64,000 nt of DNA, from assembly GCF_009708005.2 (NCBI RefSeq), contig NZ_CP052757.1:2046001-2110000 (forward strand). The letters run 5' to 3'. Below, piece after piece: positions 17,618 to 62,778 of the stretch (its first letter is position 1; the number at the start of each line of letters is the position of its first letter). This DNA comes from Cellulosimicrobium protaetiae (lineage in GTDB: Bacteria; Actinomycetota; Actinomycetes; Actinomycetales; Cellulomonadaceae). The position numbers and the translations under genes were made by a program. The notes under the pieces are model-generated. The model had not been told where the DNA came from, did not search any database, and worked only from the letters and a program-made list of their open reading frames with translations.

Positions 17618-22705
<5,088 letters not shown>

Positions 22706-22798
22706 CAACACACTCTTGTGCTACGCGTCCACTGTGCGGTTCCCGAACCACCAACACCACACCCCCACGGGGTGCCCGAGTGTTGACAGGTTCACAGA

Positions 22799-22916
22799 GT
22801 TACGGCGGTCACAGCGAAGGGGAAACGCCCGGTCCCATACCGAACCCGGAAGCTAAGCCCTTCAGCGCCGATGGTACTGCCCTGGAGACGGGGTGGGAGA
22901 GTAGGACGCCGCCGGA
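22799..22916 (+). rRNA. rrf: 5S ribosomal RNA
   Basis: About 118 nt, starting GTTACGGCGGTCACAGCG and ending AGTAGGACGCCGCCGG so that the two ends pair. The internal CCCGGTCCCATACCGAACCC and GGGTGGGAGAGTAGG are standard actinobacterial 5S text. It closes the single 16S-23S-5S operon. Confidence 0.97.
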
Positions 22917-22926
22917 CAACCCTTCA

Positions 22927-51613: not shown

Positions 51614-52288
51614 ATGACCGAGACCGCCGACGACCGCATCACCGCTCGGCAGTTCCACGACAGCGACGGCGTCGAGGACTGGCGGGTCATCCTCGGCACG
51701 GTGCAGACGCTGTTCCGCACGGGGTCGTTCACCGCCGGGGTGGAGCTGGTCGACGCGATCGGCGAGCTCGCCGAGGCCGCGAACCACCACCCGGACGTGG
51801 ACCTGCGCTACGCCACCGTGACGGTGCGGCTGTCGTCGCACGACGTCGGTGGCGTGAGCGCGCGCGACGTCGCGCTCGCGCGGCAGATCTCCGCCGCGGC
51901 GCGCGAGCTCGACCTCGTCGCGGACCCGACGGCGGTGCAGGACCTTGAGATCGCGATCGACACGCTCGTCGGCTCGGCGGTCCAGCCGTTCTGGCGCGCC
52001 GTCCTCGGGTTCGACGAGGGCTCCCCGGAGGTGCCCGCGCCCGATCTCCACGACCCGACGACCCACGCCCCGGCGTTCTGGTTCCAGCAGATGGACGCGC
52101 CGCGGGAGCAGCGCAACCGCATCCACGTGGACGTGACGGTCCCGCACGACGTCGCCGAGGCGCGCGTCACCGCGGCCATCGCCGCGGGCGGGCACCTCGT
52201 CTCCGACCGTCGCGCGCCGGCCTTCTGGGTCCTGGCCGACGCCGAGGGCAACGAGGCGTGCGTGTGCACCTGGCAGTCGCGCGACTGA
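51614..52288 (+). CDS. Pterin-4a-carbinolamine dehydratase fused to a VOC/glyoxalase-like domain
   Basis: A 224-aa two-domain protein. Residues about 10-105 are a 4a-hydroxytetrahydrobiopterin dehydratase domain with the pattern NHHPDVDLRYATVTVRLSSHDVGGVSARD (H-H-P...Y...H...D). Residues about 120-224 look like a glyoxalase/bleomycin-resistance (VOC) domain: AVQPFWRAVLGFDEGS, PAFWFQQMDAPREQRNRIHVDVTVPHDVAEARVTAAIAAGGHLVSD, FWVLADAEGNEACVC. The fusion partner is not a known partner of the enzyme, and the substrate is unclear. The ATG at 51614 follows GGAGGACC. It is downstream of ilvD but separately spaced. Confidence 0.8.
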   Translation: MTETADDRITARQFHDSDGVEDWRVILGTVQTLFRTGSFTAGVELVDAIGELAEAANHHPDVDLRYATVTVRLSSHDVGGVSARDVALARQISAAARELDLVADPTAVQDLEIAIDTLVGSAVQPFWRAVLGFDEGSPEVPAPDLHDPTTHAPAFWFQQMDAPREQRNRIHVDVTVPHDVAEARVTAAIAAGGHLVSDRRAPAFWVLADAEGNEACVCTWQSRD

Positions 52289-52343
52289 CGCGCGCGCGAG
52301 GAGGCTCCCGCTCGGACGGTGGTGACCTCCTCGGGCGGCCCGC

Positions 52344-53663
52344 TCAGGCCCGAGCGACGACGAGCTCGTCGTAGCCAGGCACCAGCACGCGGCGCTTCGC
52401 TCGGCGCGACACGACACGCAGGGGCGCGCCGTCGTCGAACAGGGTGTGCAGCAGCGCGGCGATCTCGGCGCGTGCGAGAGCCGCCCCGAGGCACAGGTGG
52501 CGGCCGGCGCCGAACCAGAGCTGGCGGGTCTCGCGCACGTAGGGGCGGTCGGCCCGGAACGGCCCCGCAGCGACGTTCGCGGCCCACGTGAGGATCATGA
52601 CCCGCTCGCCGGCGCGCAGCATGCGGCCCGCGACCTCGACGTCCGCGGAGACCCCGCGCCCGATGACCGACGCCGGGCTGGTCACGCGCAGGCCCTCGCG
52701 CACGGCGTTCTCCACGGCGTCGGGCTCGCCCGCGGCTCGCTCGACGGGGTGCGCGCGCTCGTCGGCCATGAGCCGCAGCAGGCGGTGCTGCTCACCCGTG
52801 TCGACGAGGAGCGCGGTCGTGCGGGCCATCGCGGACGCCGACGTCTCCGTGCCCGCGACCATGAGCAGGCTCGCGAGCCCCGTGGTCTCCTCCAGCCCCA
52901 GGCCGAGCTCGCGGCACCGGCCGAGCAGGCGGTCGGCGGGGGCGTGGCGCCACCCGTCGGGTACACCCCGGGTCAGCTCGGCGACGATCGCCTGCGCCGC
53001 GCTGACCTGCTCCGCCGACAGGTACGTCGAGCCCGCGCTGCCGAGCGCGATCGACGCGAGGCGCTCGCCGGTCGCGAACGCCGCGAGCGCGTCGTCGTCG
53101 CCGGGGACGACGGCGGACCCGCCGTCGGGGGCGGCCGCGCCGCCGAGCGTCGGGATGCCGAGCAGGGAGATCATCATCCGCCCCACGAGCACGCGCGCGA
53201 GCCGGCCGACGTCGACCGTGCCGCCCGCCGCGAGGGTCCGCCTCGCGTCGTCGAGCGCCACGGACCATGCGCCGTCGACGAGCGCCGCGGCGCTCGCCTC
53301 CGTGAAGAGCTCGCGCGAGCGCGTGCGCAGGTCGTGGTGGCCCGGTCCGTCGAACAGGTCGAGGACCCAGTCGCCGAGGATCTGCGCCCACAGGTGCCCG
53401 ACCCCGCCCTCGCCGACGATCGTGAAGTGCCGGTGGTCGGTGAGGACGCGGCGCCCGACCGTCGGGTCGGCGGTGACCCAGCCGAGCCCAGGCACCTTGC
53501 GCAGTCCGCCGCCCTCGCGCGGTCCGGCGAGCACCCCGCCCGCGAGCAGGACGCCGGCCATCGCGGGCCTTGCGGCGGCGAGCACCTGCAGCTCGCGCCC
53601 GGTCGTGGGCAGGGCGCGGCGCCGGCGCGCGGTCTCCGGCGGCGAGGTCGTGGTGGCGGTCAC
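52344..53663 (-). CDS. Cytochrome P450
   Basis: Heme monooxygenase of about 439 aa. Visible motifs: I-helix oxygen-binding VAGTETSASAMARTTALLVDTG, K-helix ExxR within VREGLRVTSPAS, and the heme loop LWFGAGRHLCLGAALARAEIAAL with the axial Cys. It is a soluble bacterial-type (class I) P450 needing ferredoxin partners encoded elsewhere. The GTG at 53663 is preferred because CACACT lies six bases upstream (leaderless style); an alternative GTG at 53726 would add 21 residues. It is divergent from the KAS III gene with which it probably shares a cluster role. Substrate unknown. Confidence 0.92.
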   Translation of the reverse strand: MTATTTSPPETARRRRALPTTGRELQVLAAARPAMAGVLLAGGVLAGPREGGGLRKVPGLGWVTADPTVGRRVLTDHRHFTIVGEGGVGHLWAQILGDWVLDLFDGPGHHDLRTRSRELFTEASAAALVDGAWSVALDDARRTLAAGGTVDVGRLARVLVGRMMISLLGIPTLGGAAAPDGGSAVVPGDDDALAAFATGERLASIALGSAGSTYLSAEQVSAAQAIVAELTRGVPDGWRHAPADRLLGRCRELGLGLEETTGLASLLMVAGTETSASAMARTTALLVDTGEQHRLLRLMADERAHPVERAAGEPDAVENAVREGLRVTSPASVIGRGVSADVEVAGRMLRAGERVMILTWAANVAAGPFRADRPYVRETRQLWFGAGRHLCLGAALARAEIAALLHTLFDDGAPLRVVSRRAKRRVLVPGYDELVVARA

Positions 53664-53778
53664 CGGGTCAGTGTGGCGCACGCCGAGCCTGCCCGGGGCC
53701 GCGCGCCGCGATCTGGGGATGGGCACTTCGCCCCATCGGATCCTGTGGACGACCGCCGTCGGAGCGGGTCTGCTTGGC

Positions 53779-53784
53779 TACTGT
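53779..53784 (+). promoter_or_regulatory. -10 element of a leaderless KAS III operon
   Basis: TACTGT, then seven bases and the GTG at 53792. Confidence 0.5.
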
Positions 53785-53791
53785 GTCGCGC

Positions 53792-54883
53792 GTGCCAGAG
53801 AACCCCGCCGGGACGGCGTCCCGTCCGCCCCTCGCGCCCCCGACCGCGGTGCTCGCCGCGGTCGGGGTGCACCTGCCCGAGCGCACGGTCGACGTCCGCG
53901 AGGCGGAGCGTGCCCTCGCGGCGCGCAACCCGGGCGCGGCGCCGCGCGTGCCGATGGTCTCGCGCCTCACGGGCGTGCGGCAGGTCCACGTGCTCCCGGA
54001 CGACTGGGACGCGTCCGACCTCGCCGTCGCGGCCGCCGAGAAGCTGCTCGCGGCCGAGGGGCTGGCGACCGACGACGTCGACCTGCTGCTCTTCGCCTCG
54101 GCGAGCCAGGACATGGTCGAGCCCGCGACGTGCCACATCGTCGCCGCCAAGCTCGGTGTCCGGGCGCCGGTGATGGACGTGAAGAACGCGTGCAACTCGG
54201 TGCTCAACGCGATCGAGGTCGCGGAGGCGCTCATCGGCACCGGACGCTACGCGACCGTCCTGATCGCGTCGGGCGAGGCGCCGTCGCGCGCGGTGCGCTG
54301 GGACGTGCCGGACCGCGCGACCTACCTGCTCTCCGCGCCCGGCTACACGATGTCCGACGCCGGAGCGGCCGTCCTCGTGCGTCGCGCCACCGCCGTGGAG
54401 GCCGAGGCGCGCGACGCGGACGGCGCGCCGGCTCCGCGCGGCATCCTGGCCAGCGCGTTCGGCGCCGAGTCGACGCACTGGGACGTCGGCATGCTCCCGG
54501 GCGGCGGCACCGCGCACCCGCGCGACCTCGAGCGCACCTACTTCGAGATCGACGGGTCGCGGCTGCGCGACGCGTTCCTCGCGCTCGGGCCGGGCGTCGT
54601 CCTCGACGCGCTGGACCGTGCCGCGCTCACGTGGGACGACGTCGCGCTCGTCGCGGTCCACCAGGTCGCCGTCGCGTACCTGGACGACGTGCACGCGGCG
54701 CTCGGCCTGCCGACCGGCCGCACGCTCGTGACCGTCGCCGACCACGGCAACGTCGCGTCCGCGACGCTCCCGTTGCAGCTCGCCACCGCGCTCGAGACGG
54801 GACGCGTCGGGCCGGGGGACGTCGTCGTGCTCGTGGGGCTCGCGGGCGGCATCAGCATCGGCGCGACGGTGGTGCGACTGTGA
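53792..54883 (+). CDS. 3-oxoacyl-ACP synthase III / OleA-like condensing enzyme
   Basis: Thiolase-fold enzyme of 363 aa with the full catalytic triad of FabH/OleA: Cys134 (DVKNACNSVLNAIE), His290 (VAVHQVAV) and Asn320 (ADHGNVASATLPLQL). It lacks anything beyond the single KAS III domain. FabH starts fatty acids; OleA condenses two acyl-CoAs head to head to a beta-keto acid. The downstream ligase and reductase resemble OleC and OleD, which favours an OleA-like role, but the sequence alone does not separate the two. First gene of a five-gene chain joined by four-base overlaps; probably leaderless. Confidence 0.85.
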   Translation: MPENPAGTASRPPLAPPTAVLAAVGVHLPERTVDVREAERALAARNPGAAPRVPMVSRLTGVRQVHVLPDDWDASDLAVAAAEKLLAAEGLATDDVDLLLFASASQDMVEPATCHIVAAKLGVRAPVMDVKNACNSVLNAIEVAEALIGTGRYATVLIASGEAPSRAVRWDVPDRATYLLSAPGYTMSDAGAAVLVRRATAVEAEARDADGAPAPRGILASAFGAESTHWDVGMLPGGGTAHPRDLERTYFEIDGSRLRDAFLALGPGVVLDALDRAALTWDDVALVAVHQVAVAYLDDVHAALGLPTGRTLVTVADHGNVASATLPLQLATALETGRVGPGDVVVLVGLAGGISIGATVVRL

Positions 54884-55671
54884 CGGCACGCCGGTTCACG
54901 AGGCACGTCGCGAGCCCGCAGCGGCTCGCGGTCGTCGTGCCCGCCCGCGACGAGGCGCACGGGATCGTCACGACCCTGGAGGCGCTGCGCGACCAGCACG
55001 ACACGGACTTCGACCTCGTCGTCGTCGACAACGGGTCGTCGGACGGCACGGGCGACCTCGTCCGCGCGACCGCGGCCGCGTGGGGCATGGCGCGGTGGCG
55101 CGTGGTCGACGAGCCGCAGAAGGGCACGGGCGCGGCGGCCGACACGGGGATGCGGGCGGCGATCGAGCAGGGGGCGACGCACCTCGCCCGCACGGACGCA
55201 GACTGCGTGCCGCTGCATGACTGGACCCGGCGCGTGCGCGCGGCGTTCGCGAGCGGGCACGACCTCGTCGCGGGCAGGCTCGTGGCACGCACCGACGACC
55301 GACCGGTCTCGCGCGTCCAGCAGGGCGTGCTGTCCGCGGCGGTGAGCGTGGCGAGCACGTTCGGGCGCTTCCGGCCCGGCAACCAGGACCCGTCCTACCT
55401 CGGCCCCTACGTCATGGCGCCGGGCTGCAACATGGCGATCACGGCCGAGCTCTACGAGGCTGCGGGCGGGTTCCCGCGCACGGCGATCGAGGACGTCCAC
55501 GAGGACCGGGCGCTCGTCAACGCGGTGCGCCGCCTCACGCGCCGCTACGGCGCGCACCGTGAGGTCGTCGTGCTCGCGTCGGCGCGCCGCGCGCACGCGT
55601 GGGGACTGGTGCGCACGCTCGGCTGGTACGCGGACCACCGCTACCGGCCCGAGGTCGTGGACATCCGATGA
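54880..55671 (+). CDS. Family 2 glycosyltransferase
   Basis: GT-A-fold glycosyltransferase of 263 aa: LAVVVPARDEAHGIVTTLEALRDQHDTDFDLVVVDNGSSDGTGDLV at the N-terminus, ARTDADCVPLHDWTRRV (metal-binding Asp region) and GCNMAITAELYEAAGGFPRTAIEDVHEDRALV in the acceptor half. There are no clear membrane helices beyond one weak hydrophobic stretch. It begins with a GTG overlapping the KAS III stop, so it belongs to the same cluster and could glycosylate the cluster product. Donor and acceptor unknown. Confidence 0.85.
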   Translation: MTARRFTRHVASPQRLAVVVPARDEAHGIVTTLEALRDQHDTDFDLVVVDNGSSDGTGDLVRATAAAWGMARWRVVDEPQKGTGAAADTGMRAAIEQGATHLARTDADCVPLHDWTRRVRAAFASGHDLVAGRLVARTDDRPVSRVQQGVLSAAVSVASTFGRFRPGNQDPSYLGPYVMAPGCNMAITAELYEAAGGFPRTAIEDVHEDRALVNAVRRLTRRYGAHREVVVLASARRAHAWGLVRTLGWYADHRYRPEVVDIR

Positions 55672-56969
55672 GCCAGACGACGGCGGTCCGCGCCCCGGCC
55701 GCGGCGCTCGCGGCGGCGATGCGCTGGGAGGATCGGGTCCAGCGCGGCGCGCACCCGCTCGTCTACCCGGCGATCCGGGCGCTGCGCCACCGCGGCCCGG
55801 TCGTGCGCGTCCCCGGCATCGGGGTGGTCGTGTCCGACGCCGCGACCGCGCGGGCCGTGCTGCTCGACACCGAGCGTTTCACCAAGGTGGGCCCGGGGTC
55901 GCCGTCGGACCTGTGGACGCCCGTGCTCGGCCCGTCCGTGCTGCTCAACATGGAGGGCGCCGACCACGCGCGCCTGCGCCGGGCGCTGTCCGGGCTGTTC
56001 ACGCCGCGCGCGGTGCGCGAGCTCGTCGCGGTGAGCGTCCCCGACGTCCTCGCGGGCCTCGCCCCGCGCCTGCTCGCGGGCGAGCGCGTCGACCTCGTCG
56101 CGGAGACGGCCACGATGGCGGGCACCGTCATCTGTGCCATGACCGGGCTGCCGCCCACCGACGCGGCCGTCCGCGAGGCCATGACGGCCGCGCAGTCGGT
56201 GGTCGGGCTCGTGCGGCTGCACCGGCGCAGCCTCACGCCCGCCCAGGTGCGGCACGCGCGCGCCGTCCTCGCCCGGCTCTCGGCCCCGGCCCGCGACGCC
56301 TACCGCGCAGGCGACCCCGCGACCGTGCCCGGTCGCATGCGCGAGCTCGGGCTCTCGGAGGACGAGGCGATGGGTGCGGTCGGCGCGTTCGTCCTCACCG
56401 GGACCGAGACCATCCAGTCCTTCGTGCCACGCCTCGTCGCGCTCACGGCGGACACGGGCTGGCTCGGCCGGCTCCTCGTGGCCGACCCCGCTGCCGGACC
56501 GGAGGTCGCCGCGCTGCGCGGCCGCGTCGTCGAGGAGGCGCTGCGGGTCACGGCGCCCACCCCCGCGATGCTGCGCTCGGTGCGCACCGACGCGACCGTG
56601 GGCGACGTCCGCGTCGGCGCGGGGGACCGGGTCGTGATCGCGACGATCTCCTGCTGCAAGGACGCGGGCCCCTTCGACCCGGACGCCCCCGTCGACCCGG
56701 CCGTGCGGCACCTGTGGTTCGGTGCCGGCCCGCACTTCTGCCTCGGCATGCCGCTCGCCATGGCCCAGGTCGACGCGGTGCTGGACGCCCTGCGCCCCGT
56801 CGCCGCCGCGGGGCGGAACGTCGAGGTCGTCGACCGCGCCGTCGCGCGCGGGGTGCTCATCCCCGCCTACCGCTCGCTCGTCGTGCGGGCGGCCGCCGGC
56901 GGGATGCGAGCGTCGGGCACGCGTCCGGTCGCGGGATCAGCCGCGTCGTCGGCAGGGGAGGCGGCGTGA
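55668..56969 (+). CDS. Cytochrome P450
   Basis: Second P450 of the cluster, 433 aa, paralogous to but clearly different from the one on the minus strand. Motifs: AFVLTGTETIQSFVPRL (I helix), VVEEALRVTAPTPAML (ExxR) and HLWFGAGPHFCLGMPLAMAQV (heme loop with Cys). The start ATG at 55668 overlaps the glycosyltransferase stop (ATGA), so it is translationally coupled. It probably oxidises the product made by the condensing enzyme and reductase. Confidence 0.92.
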   Translation: MSQTTAVRAPAAALAAAMRWEDRVQRGAHPLVYPAIRALRHRGPVVRVPGIGVVVSDAATARAVLLDTERFTKVGPGSPSDLWTPVLGPSVLLNMEGADHARLRRALSGLFTPRAVRELVAVSVPDVLAGLAPRLLAGERVDLVAETATMAGTVICAMTGLPPTDAAVREAMTAAQSVVGLVRLHRRSLTPAQVRHARAVLARLSAPARDAYRAGDPATVPGRMRELGLSEDEAMGAVGAFVLTGTETIQSFVPRLVALTADTGWLGRLLVADPAAGPEVAALRGRVVEEALRVTAPTPAMLRSVRTDATVGDVRVGAGDRVVIATISCCKDAGPFDPDAPVDPAVRHLWFGAGPHFCLGMPLAMAQVDAVLDALRPVAAAGRNVEVVDRAVARGVLIPAYRSLVVRAAAGGMRASGTRPVAGSAASSAGEAA

Positions 56970-58819
56970 CCGCGCCCGACGACGCGGCTCGCCACCTGCT
57001 GGGCCCGATCCTCGAGCGGGGCGCCCCCGGGCACGCGTCCGCAGACGCCGTCGCGCTCCGGCGCTGGACGCGCCCCGGTCGTCGGGGTGCGCGCGTGCGC
57101 GAGGAGGTCACGTACGCCGACCTCGCGCGCCGCGTCGAGGCGACCGCGACGGCGCTCGCGGCCGACGGGCTCGCGCCCGGGGACCGGGCGCTGTTCTCGG
57201 TGCGTCCTCGGCCGGAGGGCGTCGTGCTCGCGTTCGGGGTCGTCCGCGCGGGCGGCACGATCGTGTTCGTCGACCCGGGCTCGACCCCCGAGCTGTTCAC
57301 GGCGCGCGTGGGCGCGGCCGGGCCGTCGCTCGCGACCACCGAGTCGCTGCTGTACGCGGTGTCGCGCGGGCCGCTGCGTCGTCTGGCCCGCTCGCGCGGG
57401 CTGCTCCTGCCGGACTACGCGAGCCTGCCGCTGCGGCACGTGCACGCGGGGCCGTGGCTCCCCGGGGTGCCGCGCGGCTCGCGCGCCGCGCGCCGTCTCG
57501 CCGCGCGCCCGGTCGACCGCGCGGCGCTGCCGCCGCTCGACCCGGACCGTGAAGCGCTGACCGTCTTCACGTCGGGCACGACGGCGCAGCCGAAGGCCGT
57601 CGTGCACACGGCGGGGTCGTTGCTCGCCGGGTGCGACCTGCTGCGCGACGTGTTCGCGCTCGCGCCGGGCGACGTCGTGCACACCGACCAGATGCTGCTC
57701 GGCGTCCCCGCGCTGCTCGCGGGCGCCACGTGGTCCGTGCCCGCCGACCCGCCGGGCCGCGACATCGCGACGTTCGCGCGCCAGCTCGACGGCGCGGCGG
57801 GCACCTACCTCGTGCCGGCCGACGTCACCGCGCTGCTCGACGCGGTCGAGGCCGGGACGGTGCCCGCGCGCGGGCCGCGCGTCGCGCTCGTGGGCGGGGC
57901 TCCCGTGACCCGCGCGTTGCTGGAGCGCGCGACGCGCGCGCTGCCCGGCACACGCTGGGTCGCGGTGTACGGGACGACGGAGATCCTGCCCGTCGCGGTG
58001 GTCGAGGCGCACGAGAAGCTCGCGTACGTGGGCGACGGCGACCTCGTGGGCGTGCCGCTGCCCGGCACGGTCGCGCGGCTCGACCCGGTCGAGGGCGAGG
58101 AGCCCCAGGACGGTCGGGACGCCGTCGGCGAACCAGGGAGCGACGACGTCGTCGGAGAGCTCGTGCTGTCCGGGCCGTCGCTCATGGCGGGCTACCTGCA
58201 CGACCTCGACGCCCCCGCGCGCGGCGCGGGCGCACGGGCCGCGGAGCACCGCACCGGCGACCTCGCACGTCTCGACGGCGCGGGCCGGCTCCTGCTCGTC
58301 GGTCGCACGCGGGACATGATCATCCGCGGCACGACGAACATCTACCCGGGCCTGTTCGAGCCGCGCGTCGCCGCGCTCGACGGCGTCGGCGAGGCGCTGC
58401 TCGTCGGCGTGCCCCAGGTGGACGGCGACGAGCGGGTCGCGCTGGTCGTCACCTCGGCGACGGGCGATCCGGCGACGGGCCACCAGCGGCTGGAAGGGTC
58501 CGCAGGGCGCGGTCCACGGTCCGACGGCGGGTCGGCGGGCCGTCTCGACCCGCTCCACCCGCTCGTCGACCGGGTGCGTGCCGCGCTGCCGGGCGTGCTC
58601 GACCACGACGCGCTGCCCGACGTCGTGCTGCACGCCGACTGCGTCCCGCTCGCCGGTCGCTCGCGCAAGCCCGACCGCGCGGCGCTCTCCCGCGCCGCCG
58701 CCCCGTTCGTGCCCGCCGAGCCGCGCGCGACGGTGGAGCCGGCCGTGCCCGCCGAGCCGCTCGAGACCGAGACGACCGGGCCCGCCGCGGCGACCGCCGT
58801 CCACGGCGCCCGCACGTGA
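56966..58819 (+). CDS. AMP-binding acyl ligase, OleC (beta-lactone synthetase)-like
   Basis: ANL-superfamily adenylating enzyme, 617 aa. Core motifs in order: LTVFTSGTTAQPKAVVHTAGS (P-loop A3), VAVYGTTEILPVAVVEAHEK (A5), EHRTGDLARLDGAGRLLLVGRTRDMIIRGTTNIYPG (A7/A8) and a C-terminal Lys in SRKPDRAALSR. The GTTEILPV segment resembles OleC, which closes a beta-hydroxy acid to a beta-lactone, more than ordinary acyl-CoA ligases, but I cannot run the comparison. There is no fused OleB alpha/beta hydrolase, unlike the OleBC of Micrococcus. The start GTG overlaps the P450 stop, and the C-terminal 40 residues are a Pro/Ala/Glu-rich tail. Confidence 0.8.
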   Translation: MTAPDDAARHLLGPILERGAPGHASADAVALRRWTRPGRRGARVREEVTYADLARRVEATATALAADGLAPGDRALFSVRPRPEGVVLAFGVVRAGGTIVFVDPGSTPELFTARVGAAGPSLATTESLLYAVSRGPLRRLARSRGLLLPDYASLPLRHVHAGPWLPGVPRGSRAARRLAARPVDRAALPPLDPDREALTVFTSGTTAQPKAVVHTAGSLLAGCDLLRDVFALAPGDVVHTDQMLLGVPALLAGATWSVPADPPGRDIATFARQLDGAAGTYLVPADVTALLDAVEAGTVPARGPRVALVGGAPVTRALLERATRALPGTRWVAVYGTTEILPVAVVEAHEKLAYVGDGDLVGVPLPGTVARLDPVEGEEPQDGRDAVGEPGSDDVVGELVLSGPSLMAGYLHDLDAPARGAGARAAEHRTGDLARLDGAGRLLLVGRTRDMIIRGTTNIYPGLFEPRVAALDGVGEALLVGVPQVDGDERVALVVTSATGDPATGHQRLEGSAGRGPRSDGGSAGRLDPLHPLVDRVRAALPGVLDHDALPDVVLHADCVPLAGRSRKPDRAALSRAAAPFVPAEPRATVEPAVPAEPLETETTGPAAATAVHGART

Positions 58820-59796
58820 GGGTCGTCGTCACCGGGGCGTCGGGGTTCGTCGGAGGAGCGGTCGCGCGCGGCCTGGTCGCCGACGGGCACGAGGTCTGGA
58901 CGTCCTCCCGGCGCGACCCGGCGGTCGACGGCGCCCGGCACCTCGCGTGGGACCTCACCGCCGGTCCGCTCGCCGACCCGCCCGCGGTGGATGCCGTCGT
59001 GCACGCGGGTGCCGCCGTCTCCGACTGGTGCGCGCTCGACGTCGCGCGCGCGACCAACGTCGGCGGGACGCTCGCGGTCCGCGAGACGTTCCCCGGTGCG
59101 CGGTTCGTGCACGTCTCGTCCGGCAGCGTGTACGACCCGTTCCGCCCGAGCGTGCGTGCCCGCGAGCACGAGGCTCCTGTCGACCGGTACCTCGACGCCT
59201 ACGGGACGACCAAGGCGGAGGCCGAGCGCGCGCTCGCGCGCGACGTCGCGCGCTACCCAGACCGAGGCGCCGTCGTGGTGCTGCGCCCGCACGCCGTCTA
59301 CGGCCCGGGGGACACGACGCTGCTCCCGCGCGTCGAGGCCGCCGTGCGGCACAGACGCCTCGTGCTGCCCGGAGGGGGCCGGGCGCTCCAGTCGCTGACG
59401 CACGTCGACACGCTGCTCGCCGCGGTGCGTGCTGCCGTCGCGCTGCCCGACGAGACGGTCCGGGCGCCCGGCGGCGGGGAAGGACCGACCCCCGGGCTCC
59501 TCGTCGCGAACGTCACAGACGCCGAGCCGCTTGTCCTGCGCGACGCGCTCACCGACGCGCTCCGCCGACGCGGCACCGACGTCCGGGTCGTCGCCGTCCC
59601 GGTCCGCCCCGCGTGGGCGCTCGCGGGCGCGGTCGAGACGGTCGCGCGGCGGCTGCGACGCCCTGAGCCGCCGCGCCTCACGCGGTATGCGCTGAGCCAC
59701 CTCGCGATGGAGCGCACCTACGACCTCACGGTCCTGCGCGACGTGCTCGGGGTCGAGCCCGCTCCCACGAGCTTCGTCGGGGCCGAGCGGTGGTAG
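58816..59796 (+). CDS. NAD(P)-dependent epimerase/dehydratase, OleD-like reductase
   Basis: Extended short-chain dehydrogenase, 326 aa. N-terminal RVVVTGASGFVGGAVARGLVADGHEV (GxxGxxG), VDAVVHAGAAVSDW, the active-site Ser region VHVSSGSVYDPF and YGTTKAEAERALA (YxxxK). In ole pathways OleD reduces the 2-alkyl-3-oxo acid to the hydroxy acid used by OleC, matching its position right after the OleC-like gene. A role as sugar epimerase is the alternative. Start GTG overlaps the ligase stop. Last gene of the coupled chain. Confidence 0.83.
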   Translation: MRVVVTGASGFVGGAVARGLVADGHEVWTSSRRDPAVDGARHLAWDLTAGPLADPPAVDAVVHAGAAVSDWCALDVARATNVGGTLAVRETFPGARFVHVSSGSVYDPFRPSVRAREHEAPVDRYLDAYGTTKAEAERALARDVARYPDRGAVVVLRPHAVYGPGDTTLLPRVEAAVRHRRLVLPGGGRALQSLTHVDTLLAAVRAAVALPDETVRAPGGGEGPTPGLLVANVTDAEPLVLRDALTDALRRRGTDVRVVAVPVRPAWALAGAVETVARRLRRPEPPRLTRYALSHLAMERTYDLTVLRDVLGVEPAPTSFVGAERW

Positions 59797-59831
59797 CGGC
59801 GAAAGCCCTGGGTGTGGTGACGACGACCGGC

Positions 59832-59837
59832 TAGGTT
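59832..59837 (+). promoter_or_regulatory. -10 element of the leaderless DUF4037 gene
   Basis: TAGGTT with six bases before the GTG at 59844. Confidence 0.5.
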
Positions 59838-59843
59838 GCCCGG

Positions 59844-60890
59844 GTGGAGACCGGGACCGACCTCGCGCGGCGCTACTACGACGAGGTCGTGGGGCCGATC
59901 GTGCTCCGCCGCTGGCCCGGGCTGCCGCACGCGGCGGGACGTCTCGGGAGCGGGTCCGACGTCCTCGGGCTCGACGACGCGACGTCGCGCGACCACGACT
60001 GGGGCCTGCGTCTGACGTTGCTGGTCGACGACCCGATGGTCGACCAGGTCGACGCGCTGCTCGACGCCGAGCTGCCGGACATGTTCCGCGGGCACCCGAC
60101 CCGCTTCCCGACCACGTGGAACCCGCACGGTCCGCACCAGGTCGAGGTCGCGTCGCCGTCGGGCTTCGTCAGATCCCGCCTCGGCGTCGACGCGACGCGC
60201 CCGCTCGCCGTGGACGACTGGCTCGCGCTCACCGGTCAGGCGGTGCTCGAGGTCACCGCAGGTCCCGTCTTCGTGGACACCGAGGGGACGCTGACCGCGG
60301 CGCGCGACCGCCTCGCCTGGTACCCGGACGACCTGTGGCGCTACGCGGTCGCCGTCGACTGGGCGCGGATCGGCCAGGAGCTGCCGTTCGTCGGCCGGAC
60401 GGCGGACCGCGGCGACGACCTCGGGTCACGCGTCGTCGCTGCCCGGCTCGTGCGCGTCGCGATGCACCTCGGGTTCCTGCTCGAGCGGCGCTGGCCTCCG
60501 TACGCGAAGTGGTTCGGGACGGCGTTCGCCGCGCTCCCGCGCGCCGCCGTCGCCGGGCCCGACCTCGCGGCGGCGCTCGCCGCCGCCGACGGGCGGGCGC
60601 GCGAGGAAGCGCTCTGCCGGGCGCTGGAGACCCTGCACGACCTCCAGGGCGAGGTGCGGCTCCCGACCGTGGCCGACGTCGTCGTCCCGTTCTTCGACCG
60701 GCCGTACCGGGGGCTCGGGCCGGTGGCCGACGCGGTGACGGCCGCGATCCAGGACCCGGTGGTGCAGGCGCTGCCACCGGGCGTCGGGACGGTCGAGCAG
60801 TGGGTCGACGACGTCGACGTCCTCACCGACCCCGGCCGTCGCGTCGCCGCGGCGCGCGGCGTCGGGCAGGCTGGGACGACGACCCCGTGA
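59844..60890 (+). CDS. DUF4037-type nucleotidyltransferase-like protein
   Basis: A 348-aa protein I place with DUF4037 domain proteins. The segment GRLGSGSDVLGLDDATSRDHDWGLRLTLLVDD has the GSGSD...D shape of a minimal nucleotidyltransferase active site, and RVAMHLGFLLERRWPPYAKWFGTAFAALP plus LHDLQGEVRLPTVADVVVPFFDRPYRG are conserved in such proteins as I recall them. The biochemical role is unknown (possibly nucleotidyl transfer to a small molecule). It follows the ole-like chain with its own promoter, and precedes the glucosidase gene by 19 bases. Confidence 0.75.
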   Translation: METGTDLARRYYDEVVGPIVLRRWPGLPHAAGRLGSGSDVLGLDDATSRDHDWGLRLTLLVDDPMVDQVDALLDAELPDMFRGHPTRFPTTWNPHGPHQVEVASPSGFVRSRLGVDATRPLAVDDWLALTGQAVLEVTAGPVFVDTEGTLTAARDRLAWYPDDLWRYAVAVDWARIGQELPFVGRTADRGDDLGSRVVAARLVRVAMHLGFLLERRWPPYAKWFGTAFAALPRAAVAGPDLAAALAAADGRAREEALCRALETLHDLQGEVRLPTVADVVVPFFDRPYRGLGPVADAVTAAIQDPVVQALPPGVGTVEQWVDDVDVLTDPGRRVAAARGVGQAGTTTP

Positions 60891-60909
60891 CCCGAGAGGA
60901 AGCCGTGCG

Positions 60910-62778
60910 ATGACCTCGTCCGCCCCTACCCCGGACGCCCTGCCCCGCGGCGGGTGGCCCGGCGCCGAGACGCCCGGTGACGCGCCCTGGTGGACGCGCT
61001 CGGTCGTGTACCAGGTGTACCCGCGTTCCTTCCAGGACACCGACGGCGACGGCGTCGGCGACCTCCCCGGGGTCACCCGGCGCCTCGACCACCTGGAGCG
61101 GCTGGGGGTGGACGTCGTGTGGCTGTCCCCGGTGTACCGCTCGCCGCAGGCGGACAACGGGTACGACATCAGCGACTACGAGGACGTCGACCCGCTGTTC
61201 GGGTCGCTCGCGGACCTCGACGCGCTGATCGAGGGTCTGCACGCGCGGGGGATGAAGCTCGTCATGGACCTCGTTGTCAACCACACGAGCGACGAGCACC
61301 CGTGGTTCGTCCAGTCGCGGTCGTCCGCCGAGAGCCCGCGACGCGACTGGTACTGGTGGCGCCCCGCGCGCGCCGGCATGGAGCCCGGGGCGCCGGGCGC
61401 CGAGCCGACCAACTGGCGGTCCTTCTTCGGTGGGAGCGCGTGGCGGTTCGACGAGGCGTCGGGGGAGTACTACCTGCACCTGTTCGACACCAAGCAGCCG
61501 GACCTCAACTGGGAGAACCCGGAGGTCCGCCAGGCGGTCTACGCCATGATGCGGCGGTGGCTGGACCGTGGTGTCGACGGGTTCCGCATGGACGTCATCA
61601 ACCTGATCTCCAAGGACGTCGGCCCCGACGGCTCGCTGCCCGACGGCGAGGTGCACTGGGGGACGTACGGCGACGGGAGCCCGCACTACACGGACGGGCC
61701 GCGCGTCCACGAGTTCCTCGCCGAGATGCACCGCGAGGTGTTCGCGCCCTTCCTCGCGCAGGGCCGCGAGATCCTCACGGTGGGGGAGACGCCGGGCGTG
61801 ACCGTCGAGCACGGCGTCCGGTACACCGACCCCGACCGCCGCGAGGTCGACATGGTGTTCCAGTTCGAGCACATGGGCATCGACCACGGGGCGACGCGCT
61901 ACGACCCGGTCCGGTGGGACCTCGCCGACCTCAAGGCGACCCTCGGCCGGTGGCAGGCGGGCCTCGCCGACCGCGGCTGGAACGCCCTGTACTGGGACAA
62001 CCACGACCAGCCGCGCGTCGTCTCGCGCTTCGGCGACGACTCCCCCGCGCACCGCGTGGCCTCGGCCAAGGCGCTCGCGCTCCTGCTGCACCTGCACCGC
62101 GGCACGCCGTACGTCTACCAGGGCGAGGAGCTCGGCATGACGAACGCGCCGTTCACCCGCGTCGAGCAGTACCAGGACGTCGAGTCGCTCGGGTACTTCC
62201 GCGAGCTCACCGGCCGCACGGGTGGCCCGCGACTGCGCACCGACGGCGAGATGCTCGCCGTGCTCGCGCACGCGAGCCGTGACCACGCCCGCACGCCCGT
62301 GCAGTGGGACGCGACCGTGAACGCCGGGTTCACGGCCGGGACGCCGTGGCTCGAGGTCAACCCCAACCACACCACGATCAACGCGGAGGCCGCGTGGGCC
62401 GACGAGGACTCGGTGCTGCACTTCTACCGCCGGCTCGTCTCCCTGCGCCGCGACGAGCCGGTCGTCGCGCTCGGCGACTTCCGCATGCTCCTCCCCGACC
62501 ACGAGGCTCTCTACGCGTTCACGCGCGGTCTCGACACGACGGGCTCCGGCGGTGGGTCCGTCCACGACGAGCTGCTCGTCGTGGTCAACGTGAGCGGCAC
62601 CCCGCAGGAGGTCCCCGCCGGGGTGATCGCGGGGTGGGAGGAGGCCGTGGTGCTCGTCTCCACGCACCCGTCAAGGGACGACGACGAGGGCCGACCGGGC
62701 GCCGTCGGGCACCTCCTGCCTTGGGAGGGGTGGGTGCTCCGCCGCGCGCGTGAGCACGCCCCGCGTCCCAGTGCGTGA
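60910..62778 (+). CDS. GH13 alpha-glucosidase / oligo-1,6-glucosidase
   Basis: Cytoplasmic alpha-glucosidase, 622 aa, no signal peptide. Clan GH-H motifs: WWTRSVVYQVYPRSFQDTDGDGVGDLPGVTRRLDHL at the N-terminus, LVMDLVVNHTSDEHPWF (region I), GFRMDVINLISK (region II, nucleophile Asp), REILTVGETPGV (region III, acid/base Glu), YWDNHDQPRVVSRFGDD (region IV). The QPDLNWENPEVR text fits the GH13 subfamily of alpha-glucosidases and oligo-1,6-glucosidases. It probably degrades maltose-type or isomaltose-type oligosaccharides. Ribosome site AGAGGAAG before the ATG. Confidence 0.93.
   Translation: MTSSAPTPDALPRGGWPGAETPGDAPWWTRSVVYQVYPRSFQDTDGDGVGDLPGVTRRLDHLERLGVDVVWLSPVYRSPQADNGYDISDYEDVDPLFGSLADLDALIEGLHARGMKLVMDLVVNHTSDEHPWFVQSRSSAESPRRDWYWWRPARAGMEPGAPGAEPTNWRSFFGGSAWRFDEASGEYYLHLFDTKQPDLNWENPEVRQAVYAMMRRWLDRGVDGFRMDVINLISKDVGPDGSLPDGEVHWGTYGDGSPHYTDGPRVHEFLAEMHREVFAPFLAQGREILTVGETPGVTVEHGVRYTDPDRREVDMVFQFEHMGIDHGATRYDPVRWDLADLKATLGRWQAGLADRGWNALYWDNHDQPRVVSRFGDDSPAHRVASAKALALLLHLHRGTPYVYQGEELGMTNAPFTRVEQYQDVESLGYFRELTGRTGGPRLRTDGEMLAVLAHASRDHARTPVQWDATVNAGFTAGTPWLEVNPNHTTINAEAAWADEDSVLHFYRRLVSLRRDEPVVALGDFRMLLPDHEALYAFTRGLDTTGSGGGSVHDELLVVVNVSGTPQEVPAGVIAGWEEAVVLVSTHPSRDDDEGRPGAVGHLLPWEGWVLRRAREHAPRPSA

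Follow-up and report, generated by a model that had tools for sequence, protein, structure and literature searches.

Gene content and organization of the cluster

In this study, we examined a gene set in a stretch of 64,000 nucleotides from Cellulosimicrobium protaetiae (NZ_CP052757.1, positions 2,046,001 to 2,110,000; here called the window), whose proteins resemble OleA, OleC, and OleD of the bacterial olefin clusters and which contains no OleB. Five genes on the forward strand encode an OleA-like KAS III, a GT2 glycosyltransferase, a cytochrome P450 (P450a), an OleC-like adenylate-forming ligase, and an OleD-like extended short-chain dehydrogenase/reductase (SDR), and a divergent sixth gene encodes a second P450 (P450b) (Table 1). 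The set is a conserved six-gene variant of a kind of cluster that has been described but is chemically uncharacterized.

The six open reading frames lie where the initial annotation had placed them. The arrangement it had described, a five-gene chain joined by four-base overlaps with a P450 gene diverging from it, is borne out by the frames and by reading of the four junctions (GTGA at 54880, ATGA at 55668, GTGA at 56966, and GTGA at 58816). Pfam assigns KAS III, GT2, P450, AMP-binding, NAD-epimerase, and second P450 domains over the six proteins. Close 5′ of the GTG start of the KAS III gene, the hexamer TACTGT (53779-53784) is kept in 11 of 11 aligned Cellulosimicrobium-type sequences and may possibly be the −10 box of a leaderless transcript.

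Table 1. Members of the gene set and their positions in the window
Feature	Position	Strand	Length (aa)	Basis
P450b, divergent, sixth member of the set	52344..53663	-	439	Pfam; heme motif FGAGRHLCLG, I-helix AGTET
Intergenic stretch separating divergent P450b from KAS III	53664..53791			Sequence
OleA-like KAS III/thiolase	53792..54883	+	363	Pfam; E110-P111, C134, H290, N320
GT2 glycosyltransferase	54880..55671	+	263	Pfam; TDADC (DxD) and HEDRAL motifs
P450a	55668..56969	+	433	Pfam; heme motif FGAGPHFCLG
OleC-like adenylate-forming ligase	56966..58819	+	617	Pfam AMP-binding; FTSGTT, YGTTE, and GRSRKPDR motifs
OleD-like extended SDR	58816..59796	+	326	Pfam NAD-epimerase; YGTTK catalytic motif

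Conservation and spread

The order of the five genes is kept far beyond chance. All 13 relatives from the same order carry the genes for KAS III, GT2, P450a, and the ligase in this sequence and on one strand (in one of them, L051, GT2 is read in two frames); the SDR gene follows in 10 of the 13, and a P450b homologue lies near in 7. In a scan of named genomes, a KAS III relative was confirmed at 340 places; of these we examined the best 80, and in 70 of them the five genes share order and strand. Of the other 10 loci, three have no SDR gene (L069, L070, and L074), five reach a contig end (L072, L073, L081, L102, and L114), one is disordered (L091), and one has no other core gene downstream within the stretch examined (L111). 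Hosts include Streptomyces, Actinomadura, Lentzea, Saccharopolyspora, Pseudonocardia, Catellatospora, Arthrobacter, Salinibacterium, and Leifsonia. Within the class, members of the wider KAS III group (E ≤ 1e-60) occur in 33 of 394 sampled genomes and 13 of 138 genera, and the family of genome G532 gave 1 match in 149 genomes. The window KAS III itself shares 98% identity with its counterpart in C. funkei U11 (Promicromonosporaceae, Micrococcales). One locus, L068 (QAPD01000007.1, named Sphaerisporangium cinnabarinum ATCC 31213), encodes a KAS III 91% identical to that of the window within a full Cellulosimicrobium-like set and probably belongs to a misnamed genome.

Identity of the KAS III

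The initial annotation had called three of the proteins OleA-, OleC-, and OleD-like, and these identities are supported at that level. The KAS III misses the curated cutoff of the OleA-like model NF006720 (129 versus 285 bits), for which reason we call it OleA-like rather than canonical OleA. We nevertheless favor OleA over FabH because of its catalytic glutamate, its relatives in OleB-containing clusters, and its separation from FabH in the tree. Glu117 of Xanthomonas campestris OleA is essential, and this glutamate, which Pro follows in X. campestris, occurs in all but two aligned OleAs (Smith et al. 2020, mBio, PMC7064751). The corresponding glutamate is present in 82 of 82 window-type KAS III proteins, in 32 of 32 canonical OleAs, in 4 of 4 KAS III proteins from nonfused clusters with an OleB-like hydrolase, in 6 of 6 from clusters ordered GT2-ligase-P450, and in 0 of 4 FabHs; the full constellation of E110-P111, C134, H290, and N320 is found in all 82 window-type proteins. 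In one tree, the 40 rows of canonical OleA and window-type proteins split from six rows of FabH or other KAS III (94/96), with long branches that weaken this split. In another tree, the four KAS III proteins from the nonfused clusters (L192, L201, L203, and L204) are placed within the window type (96/97 for the clade and 87/94 for an inner fork). The grouping with FabH that would have spoken against an Ole origin was therefore not seen, within the limits set by the long branches. Two other KAS III genes were encountered beside other partners: one of a distant type adjoins an AMP-binding ligase gene in the C. protaetiae genome (L146/L164, C1:365276-368294), and one of the wider group lies beside a gene for a 2,471-residue polyketide synthase in an actinomycete (L193:8747-17278).

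Identity of the ligase

Among NCBIfam models, PRK09274 gives the ligase its highest score (162 bits), followed by a model for long-chain acyl-CoA ligases (144 bits) and, in third place, by the OleC model NF045786, with 119 bits against a cutoff of 900 that even the fused OleBC of the same genome, with 274 bits, does not approach. PRK09274 is the best model for both the window ligase and the ligase half of that OleBC, and a profile search of the genome with it ranks the window ligase second, after OleBC. The adenylation motifs FTSGTT and GRSRKPDR are present, the catalytic lysine, K568, is invariant in 14 sequences, and in the best tblastn pieces, some of which may be cut, the first motif is found in 67 of 74 and the second in 56 of 74.

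Phylogenetically, the ligases of OleB clusters, fused or not, form one clade (100/99). Ligases encoded together with GT2 and P450 make up another (100/99), which unites the window type with a second type, ordered KAS III-GT2-ligase-P450-SDR (L194-L198 and L202). Tests of a grouping of the window ligase with all Ole-type ligases gave approximately unbiased (AU) p values of 0.27 and 0.48, which neither establish nor reject it. With respect to the clustering raised in the initial annotation, the ligase does not join ordinary ligases, and it does not join OleC with support either. A search of the PDB for an OleC structure (phmmer with the OleC half of the C. protaetiae OleBC as the query, E ≤ 1e-10) found none. 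Closure of a lactone by this ligase is plausible but, given its position in a clade apart from those of OleB clusters, unproven. A side observation concerns the four nonfused clusters mentioned above, in which the KAS III goes with the window type and the ligase with canonical OleC, that is, with discordant histories within one cluster.

OleB and a separate olefin operon

None of the nine proteins scanned from 51614 to 62778 is an alpha/beta hydrolase, and in the 80 named loci no OleB was detected, the only three matches at E ≤ 1 having E values of 0.29 to 0.96. The absence of OleB noted in the initial annotation thus holds for the cluster. It does not extend to the genome, and an OleB-free C. 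protaetiae had to be rejected: an oleA-oleBC-oleD operon lies 0.4 Mb from the window set (C1:2502834-2507520, equal to L017:4835-9521, where L017 is C1:2498000-2513000 and was reached by the PRK09274 search). Its KAS III exceeds the OleA-like cutoff (439 versus 285 bits), and its 888-residue fused OleBC (L017:5854-8520), which joins an alpha/beta hydrolase to an AMP-binding ligase, provides the sole match to OleB that the genome gave at E ≤ 1e-8. Such fused OleBC proteins are known from described olefin clusters (PMC7064751), and bacterial olefin clusters have been mapped in a survey centered on Micrococcales (Surger et al. 2020, PMC7158056). The operon is the usual olefin operon of Micrococcales.

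The two systems are distributed independently. Among 396 sampled genomes of the order, 14, belonging to 9 of 110 genera, encode a window-type ligase (E ≤ 1e-40), and 159 encode a canonical OleA above the cutoff. Canonical OleA is not significantly commoner in genomes with the cluster (7 of 14) than in the others (152 of 382; Fisher p 0.58), so that we rejected an association between the OleB-less set and the olefin operon. The same 7 cluster genomes have an OleB-domain match (E ≤ 1e-8) and the other 7 have none, which means that the set is also present where no OleB was detected in the genome. An OleB elsewhere in the genome, the result that the initial annotation had set against its own proposal if it followed the same pattern, therefore exists but follows a different one.

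The SDR and the reductase of the olefin operon

For the SDR, the two best NCBIfam models are both OleD models (NF042422 at 110 bits and the other at 80 bits; the next non-OleD model scores 56), and since 110 bits is below the NF042422 cutoff of 580, we call the protein OleD-like rather than OleD. The catalytic YxxxK is present in 70 of 71 SDR matches.

Loss of the SDR gene coincides with the presence of the olefin operon. We tabulated 37 distinct genomes, namely 14 of the order and 25 of the 80 named ones less two duplicates; the 25 checked for canonical OleA were hand-picked and include all three SDR-less named genomes. The SDR gene is absent in five of the 37 (G008 [Isoptericola halotolerans], G249, G336, C. 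arenosum, and C. terreum), and all five encode canonical OleA, whereas the SDR is retained in all 24 genomes that have no canonical OleA and 8 have both (Fisher p 0.003, uncorrected for kinship and drawn from three genera). One genome with SDR matches in two frames (G365) was counted as having the gene. At E ≤ 1e-10, four of the five SDR-less genomes gave a single SDR match, to the OleD encoded next to canonical oleA, and G008 gave no SDR match anywhere in the genome. The simplest reading of this pattern, which involves few events, suggests that the OleD of the olefin operon may replace the lost SDR, from which it would follow that the two pathways share the keto-acid intermediate. Isoptericola halotolerans stands somewhat apart, since its GT2 is read in two frames (L051:6563-7295) and its SDR gene is absent (L051 and L074); its cluster may be decaying.

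The glycosyltransferase and the P450s

Across the 80 named loci, the DxD motif is present in 78 of 79 GT2 matches and the HED motif in 79 of 79, and the heme motif occurs in 78 of 78 P450a matches and in 78 of 79 matches to the P450b query, some of the latter being P450a hits. A structural model of the GT2 (predicted local distance difference test [pLDDT] score, 86) resembles many GT2 sugar transferases and gives neither donor nor acceptor. In L059:6631-8589 (G153), GT2 and P450a are fused in a single open frame of 652 amino acids without a stop, which suggests that hydroxylation and glycosylation may be coupled.

Because at least 50 of the 80 loci have a P450b homologue close to the core (36 upstream and divergent, 6 upstream on the same strand in Streptomyces, and 8 downstream), we count P450b as part of the system; the counting rule missed L073, L091, and L111, each of which showed a homologue in another scan. 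The best NCBIfam model of P450b is TIGR04515, a P450-derived glycosyltransferase activator, at 54 bits against a cutoff of 343. Activators of the EryCII type have lost the heme cysteine, a loss not seen in the window, where both P450s keep the heme motif.

One cluster, L206:3043-11010 (G238), combines a window-like KAS III and P450a with an OleD-like SDR, an F390-synthetase-like ligase, and two glycosyltransferases, one GT21/HpnI-like and the other GT1-like by our reading of its sequence; here the same functions appear to be filled by other families.

Proposed pathway and alternatives

Taken together, we propose that the product is a chain-hydroxylated, glycosylated α-alkyl-β-hydroxy acid, probably closed to a β-lactone, and that the cluster represents an OleB-less lipid pathway derived from the Ole pathway, a reading to which we give a probability of about one-half. 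In this pathway, the KAS III would catalyze a nondecarboxylative head-to-head condensation of two fatty acyl thioesters, with Glu110 of the partner subunit as the base and Cys134 as the acyl carrier, to give a 2-alkyl-3-keto acid, which the SDR would reduce to the 3-hydroxy acid. An acyl chain would be hydroxylated by P450a, in many species together with P450b, and GT2, acting closely with P450a, would add a sugar to the chain hydroxyl. The ligase would adenylate the carboxylate and most likely close the β-lactone, which would be kept because the cluster has no OleB. The substrates, the order of oxidation and glycosylation, the sugar, and the closure of the lactone are what we infer in this scheme. 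An oxidized and glycosylated product, as suggested in the initial annotation, is the most economical reading of the gene set.

Several results weigh against this proposal. By score, FabH and OleA are equally close to the KAS III: two FabH models of NCBIfam give 159 and 129 bits compared to 129 bits for NF006720, a hidden Markov model of canonical OleA gives it 86 bits compared to 55 to 100 bits for four FabHs, FabHs are its top sequence matches in the PDB, and its identity is 20% to X. campestris OleA, 24% to the OleA of the same genome, and 28% to the FabH of 4DFE. Score alone leaves the matter undecided, and given these mixed results, we rejected plain score or identity as proof of either assignment. 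The AlphaFold2 (AF2) model of the KAS III (mean pLDDT, 87) likewise appears to match the two families almost equally, with OleA chains at ranks 1 to 11 of the VIA-align Z scores (38.7 to 39.7), the best FabH nearly tied at 38.4, and another OleA at rank 50, and with Foldseek placing FabH first and the best OleA at rank 31. The ligase scores only modestly above the best ordinary ligase of the genome on an OleC model (146 versus 129 bits), its clade is separate from the ligases of OleB clusters and tracks GT2 and P450 rather than OleB, and, judging by L206, an OleC-type ligase is not obligatory. Finally, the sole assayed OleA of such a cluster, that of Actinoplanes atraurantiacus, of which there was little protein, showed activity on p-nitrophenyl hexanoate and no condensation with acyl-CoAs of C8 to C16 (PMC7064751).

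The principal alternative, which we regard as possible but rather unlikely, is a nonlactone glycolipid. OleA- and OleD-type steps would yield a corynomycolate-like 2-alkyl-3-hydroxy acid, one or both P450s and GT2 would turn it into a glycoside, and the ligase would activate the acid to form an ester, amide, or macrolactone linkage in place of a four-membered ring; a macrolactone has a precedent in the lactonic sophorolipids. This alternative would accommodate a ligase clade that accompanies GT2 and P450 instead of OleB clusters, as well as L206, in which KAS III and P450 are accompanied by an F390-synthetase-like ligase and two glycosyltransferases, one of them of the GT21 type. It would also suit the flanks, where, in crude gene calls that missed several core genes, no exporter, regulator, or resistance gene beside the core was seen that is common to all families, as for a membrane lipid. 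It sits less well with the shared preference of the window ligase and the OleBC ligase half for PRK09274 and with the lack of any acyltransferase or carrier protein among the nine neighboring proteins scanned. If instead the resemblance to Ole proteins were superficial and the cluster combined a FabH-like KAS III with an ordinary acyl-CoA ligase in an unrelated pathway, the FabH-level scores of the KAS III and the weak link of the ligase to OleC would be expected; we consider this very unlikely, given the OleA glutamate in every window-type KAS III examined, the OleD model as the best match of the SDR, and the occurrence of related KAS III proteins where the cluster does encode an OleB-like hydrolase.

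The coexistence of two systems in one genome raises the further idea that the cluster feeds the olefin operon, passing a β-lactone or hydroxy acid to OleBC in trans for conversion to hydroxylated or glycosylated alkenes. OleBC and OleD are indeed encoded in the same genome, and the SDR seems replaceable by OleD, but half of the 14 cluster genomes of the order keep the set although they have no OleB match (E ≤ 1e-8), and 24 of the 37 tabulated genomes keep it although they lack canonical OleA, which makes such feeding very unlikely. There is similarly little to recommend a noncatalytic role for one P450 as a partner of the glycosyltransferase, like EryCII for EryCIII: the TIGR04515 match of P450b, far below its cutoff, and the GT2-P450a fusion would fit, whereas the near-universal heme cysteine motif in P450a and P450b-query matches would not.

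Beyond the single cluster, we suggest more tentatively, at somewhat less than even odds, that the cassette defines a widespread class of actinobacterial lipids that is chemically unseen—glycosylated, hydroxylated α-alkyl lipids, as β-lactones or glycolipids—with its own ligase subfamily, standing beside the olefin pathway in the same cell and able to borrow its OleD. β-Lactones are reactive enzyme inhibitors, and to our knowledge few pathways to them are known. They include antibiotic, antitumor, and antiobesity drugs (PMC7064751). Should the set indeed make a glycosylated β-lactone, the 340 places encoding a KAS III relative would point to an untapped lipid class in many actinobacteria, and the SDR-less genomes with an olefin operon would provide a natural test of an intermediate shared by the two pathways.

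Relation to known systems

The initial annotation had treated the exact gene set as undescribed, which does not hold: PMC7064751 presents OleA, a glycosyltransferase, OleC, a P450, and OleD without OleB in A. atraurantiacus and proposes condensation, reduction, hydroxylation, glycosylation, and β-lactone closure, so that the product suggested for the window repeats a published idea. Compared by published description only, the two sets share these five functions and the absence of OleB from the cluster. They differ in that the text on A. atraurantiacus names OleC before the P450, which is the order of L194-L198 and L202, whereas in the window the P450 gene precedes that of the ligase, and in that the window has a second P450 and its genome an OleB. 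In the literature found, with most subscription journals outside the search, PMC7064751 alone describes such a set, and we did not meet the two-P450 set, its spread, the separate ligase clade, the coexistence with an olefin operon, or the SDR pattern.

Compared to the olefin operon of the same genome, the window set has in common a KAS III with the catalytic glutamate, a reductase, and an adenylating ligase, and it differs in lacking OleB, in the added GT2 and P450s, and in the separate clades of its KAS III and ligase. The nonfused clusters L192, L201, L203, and L204 from Actinomycetes share the nested KAS III with the window type but encode an OleB-like hydrolase beside an SDR and an OleC-clade ligase and have no GT2 or P450a match in the stretch examined; the best curated model of their hydrolases is haloalkane dehalogenase, below the cutoff, as for the C. 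protaetiae OleBC. The lipstatin and nocardiolactone clusters have two OleA paralogues, and that of lipstatin also has nonribosomal peptide synthetase tailoring, unlike the window set with its one KAS III, GT2, and P450s. The oleACD sets of these clusters, in S. toxytricini and N. brasiliensis, respectively, share with the window the absence of oleB, and their products are β-lactones (PMC7064751).

Flanking genes

Upstream of the set, 51614-52288 encodes a fusion of a pterin-4a-carbinolamine dehydratase with a glyoxalase-like domain, a homologue of which adjoins the set in 4 of the 13 relatives (L050-L053), likely as synteny only. An ABC-transporter ATPase of at least 67% identity lies upstream in 14 loci from Promicromonospora, Myceligenerans, and Antribacter (L087:7480-8544 among them) and may reflect either an associated exporter or synteny alone; the remaining ABC hits reach no more than about 34% identity to it, and the other flanks follow the synteny of each genus. 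ARAGORN found no tRNA in the window, which carries complete 16S-23S-5S rRNA genes at 17618-22917.

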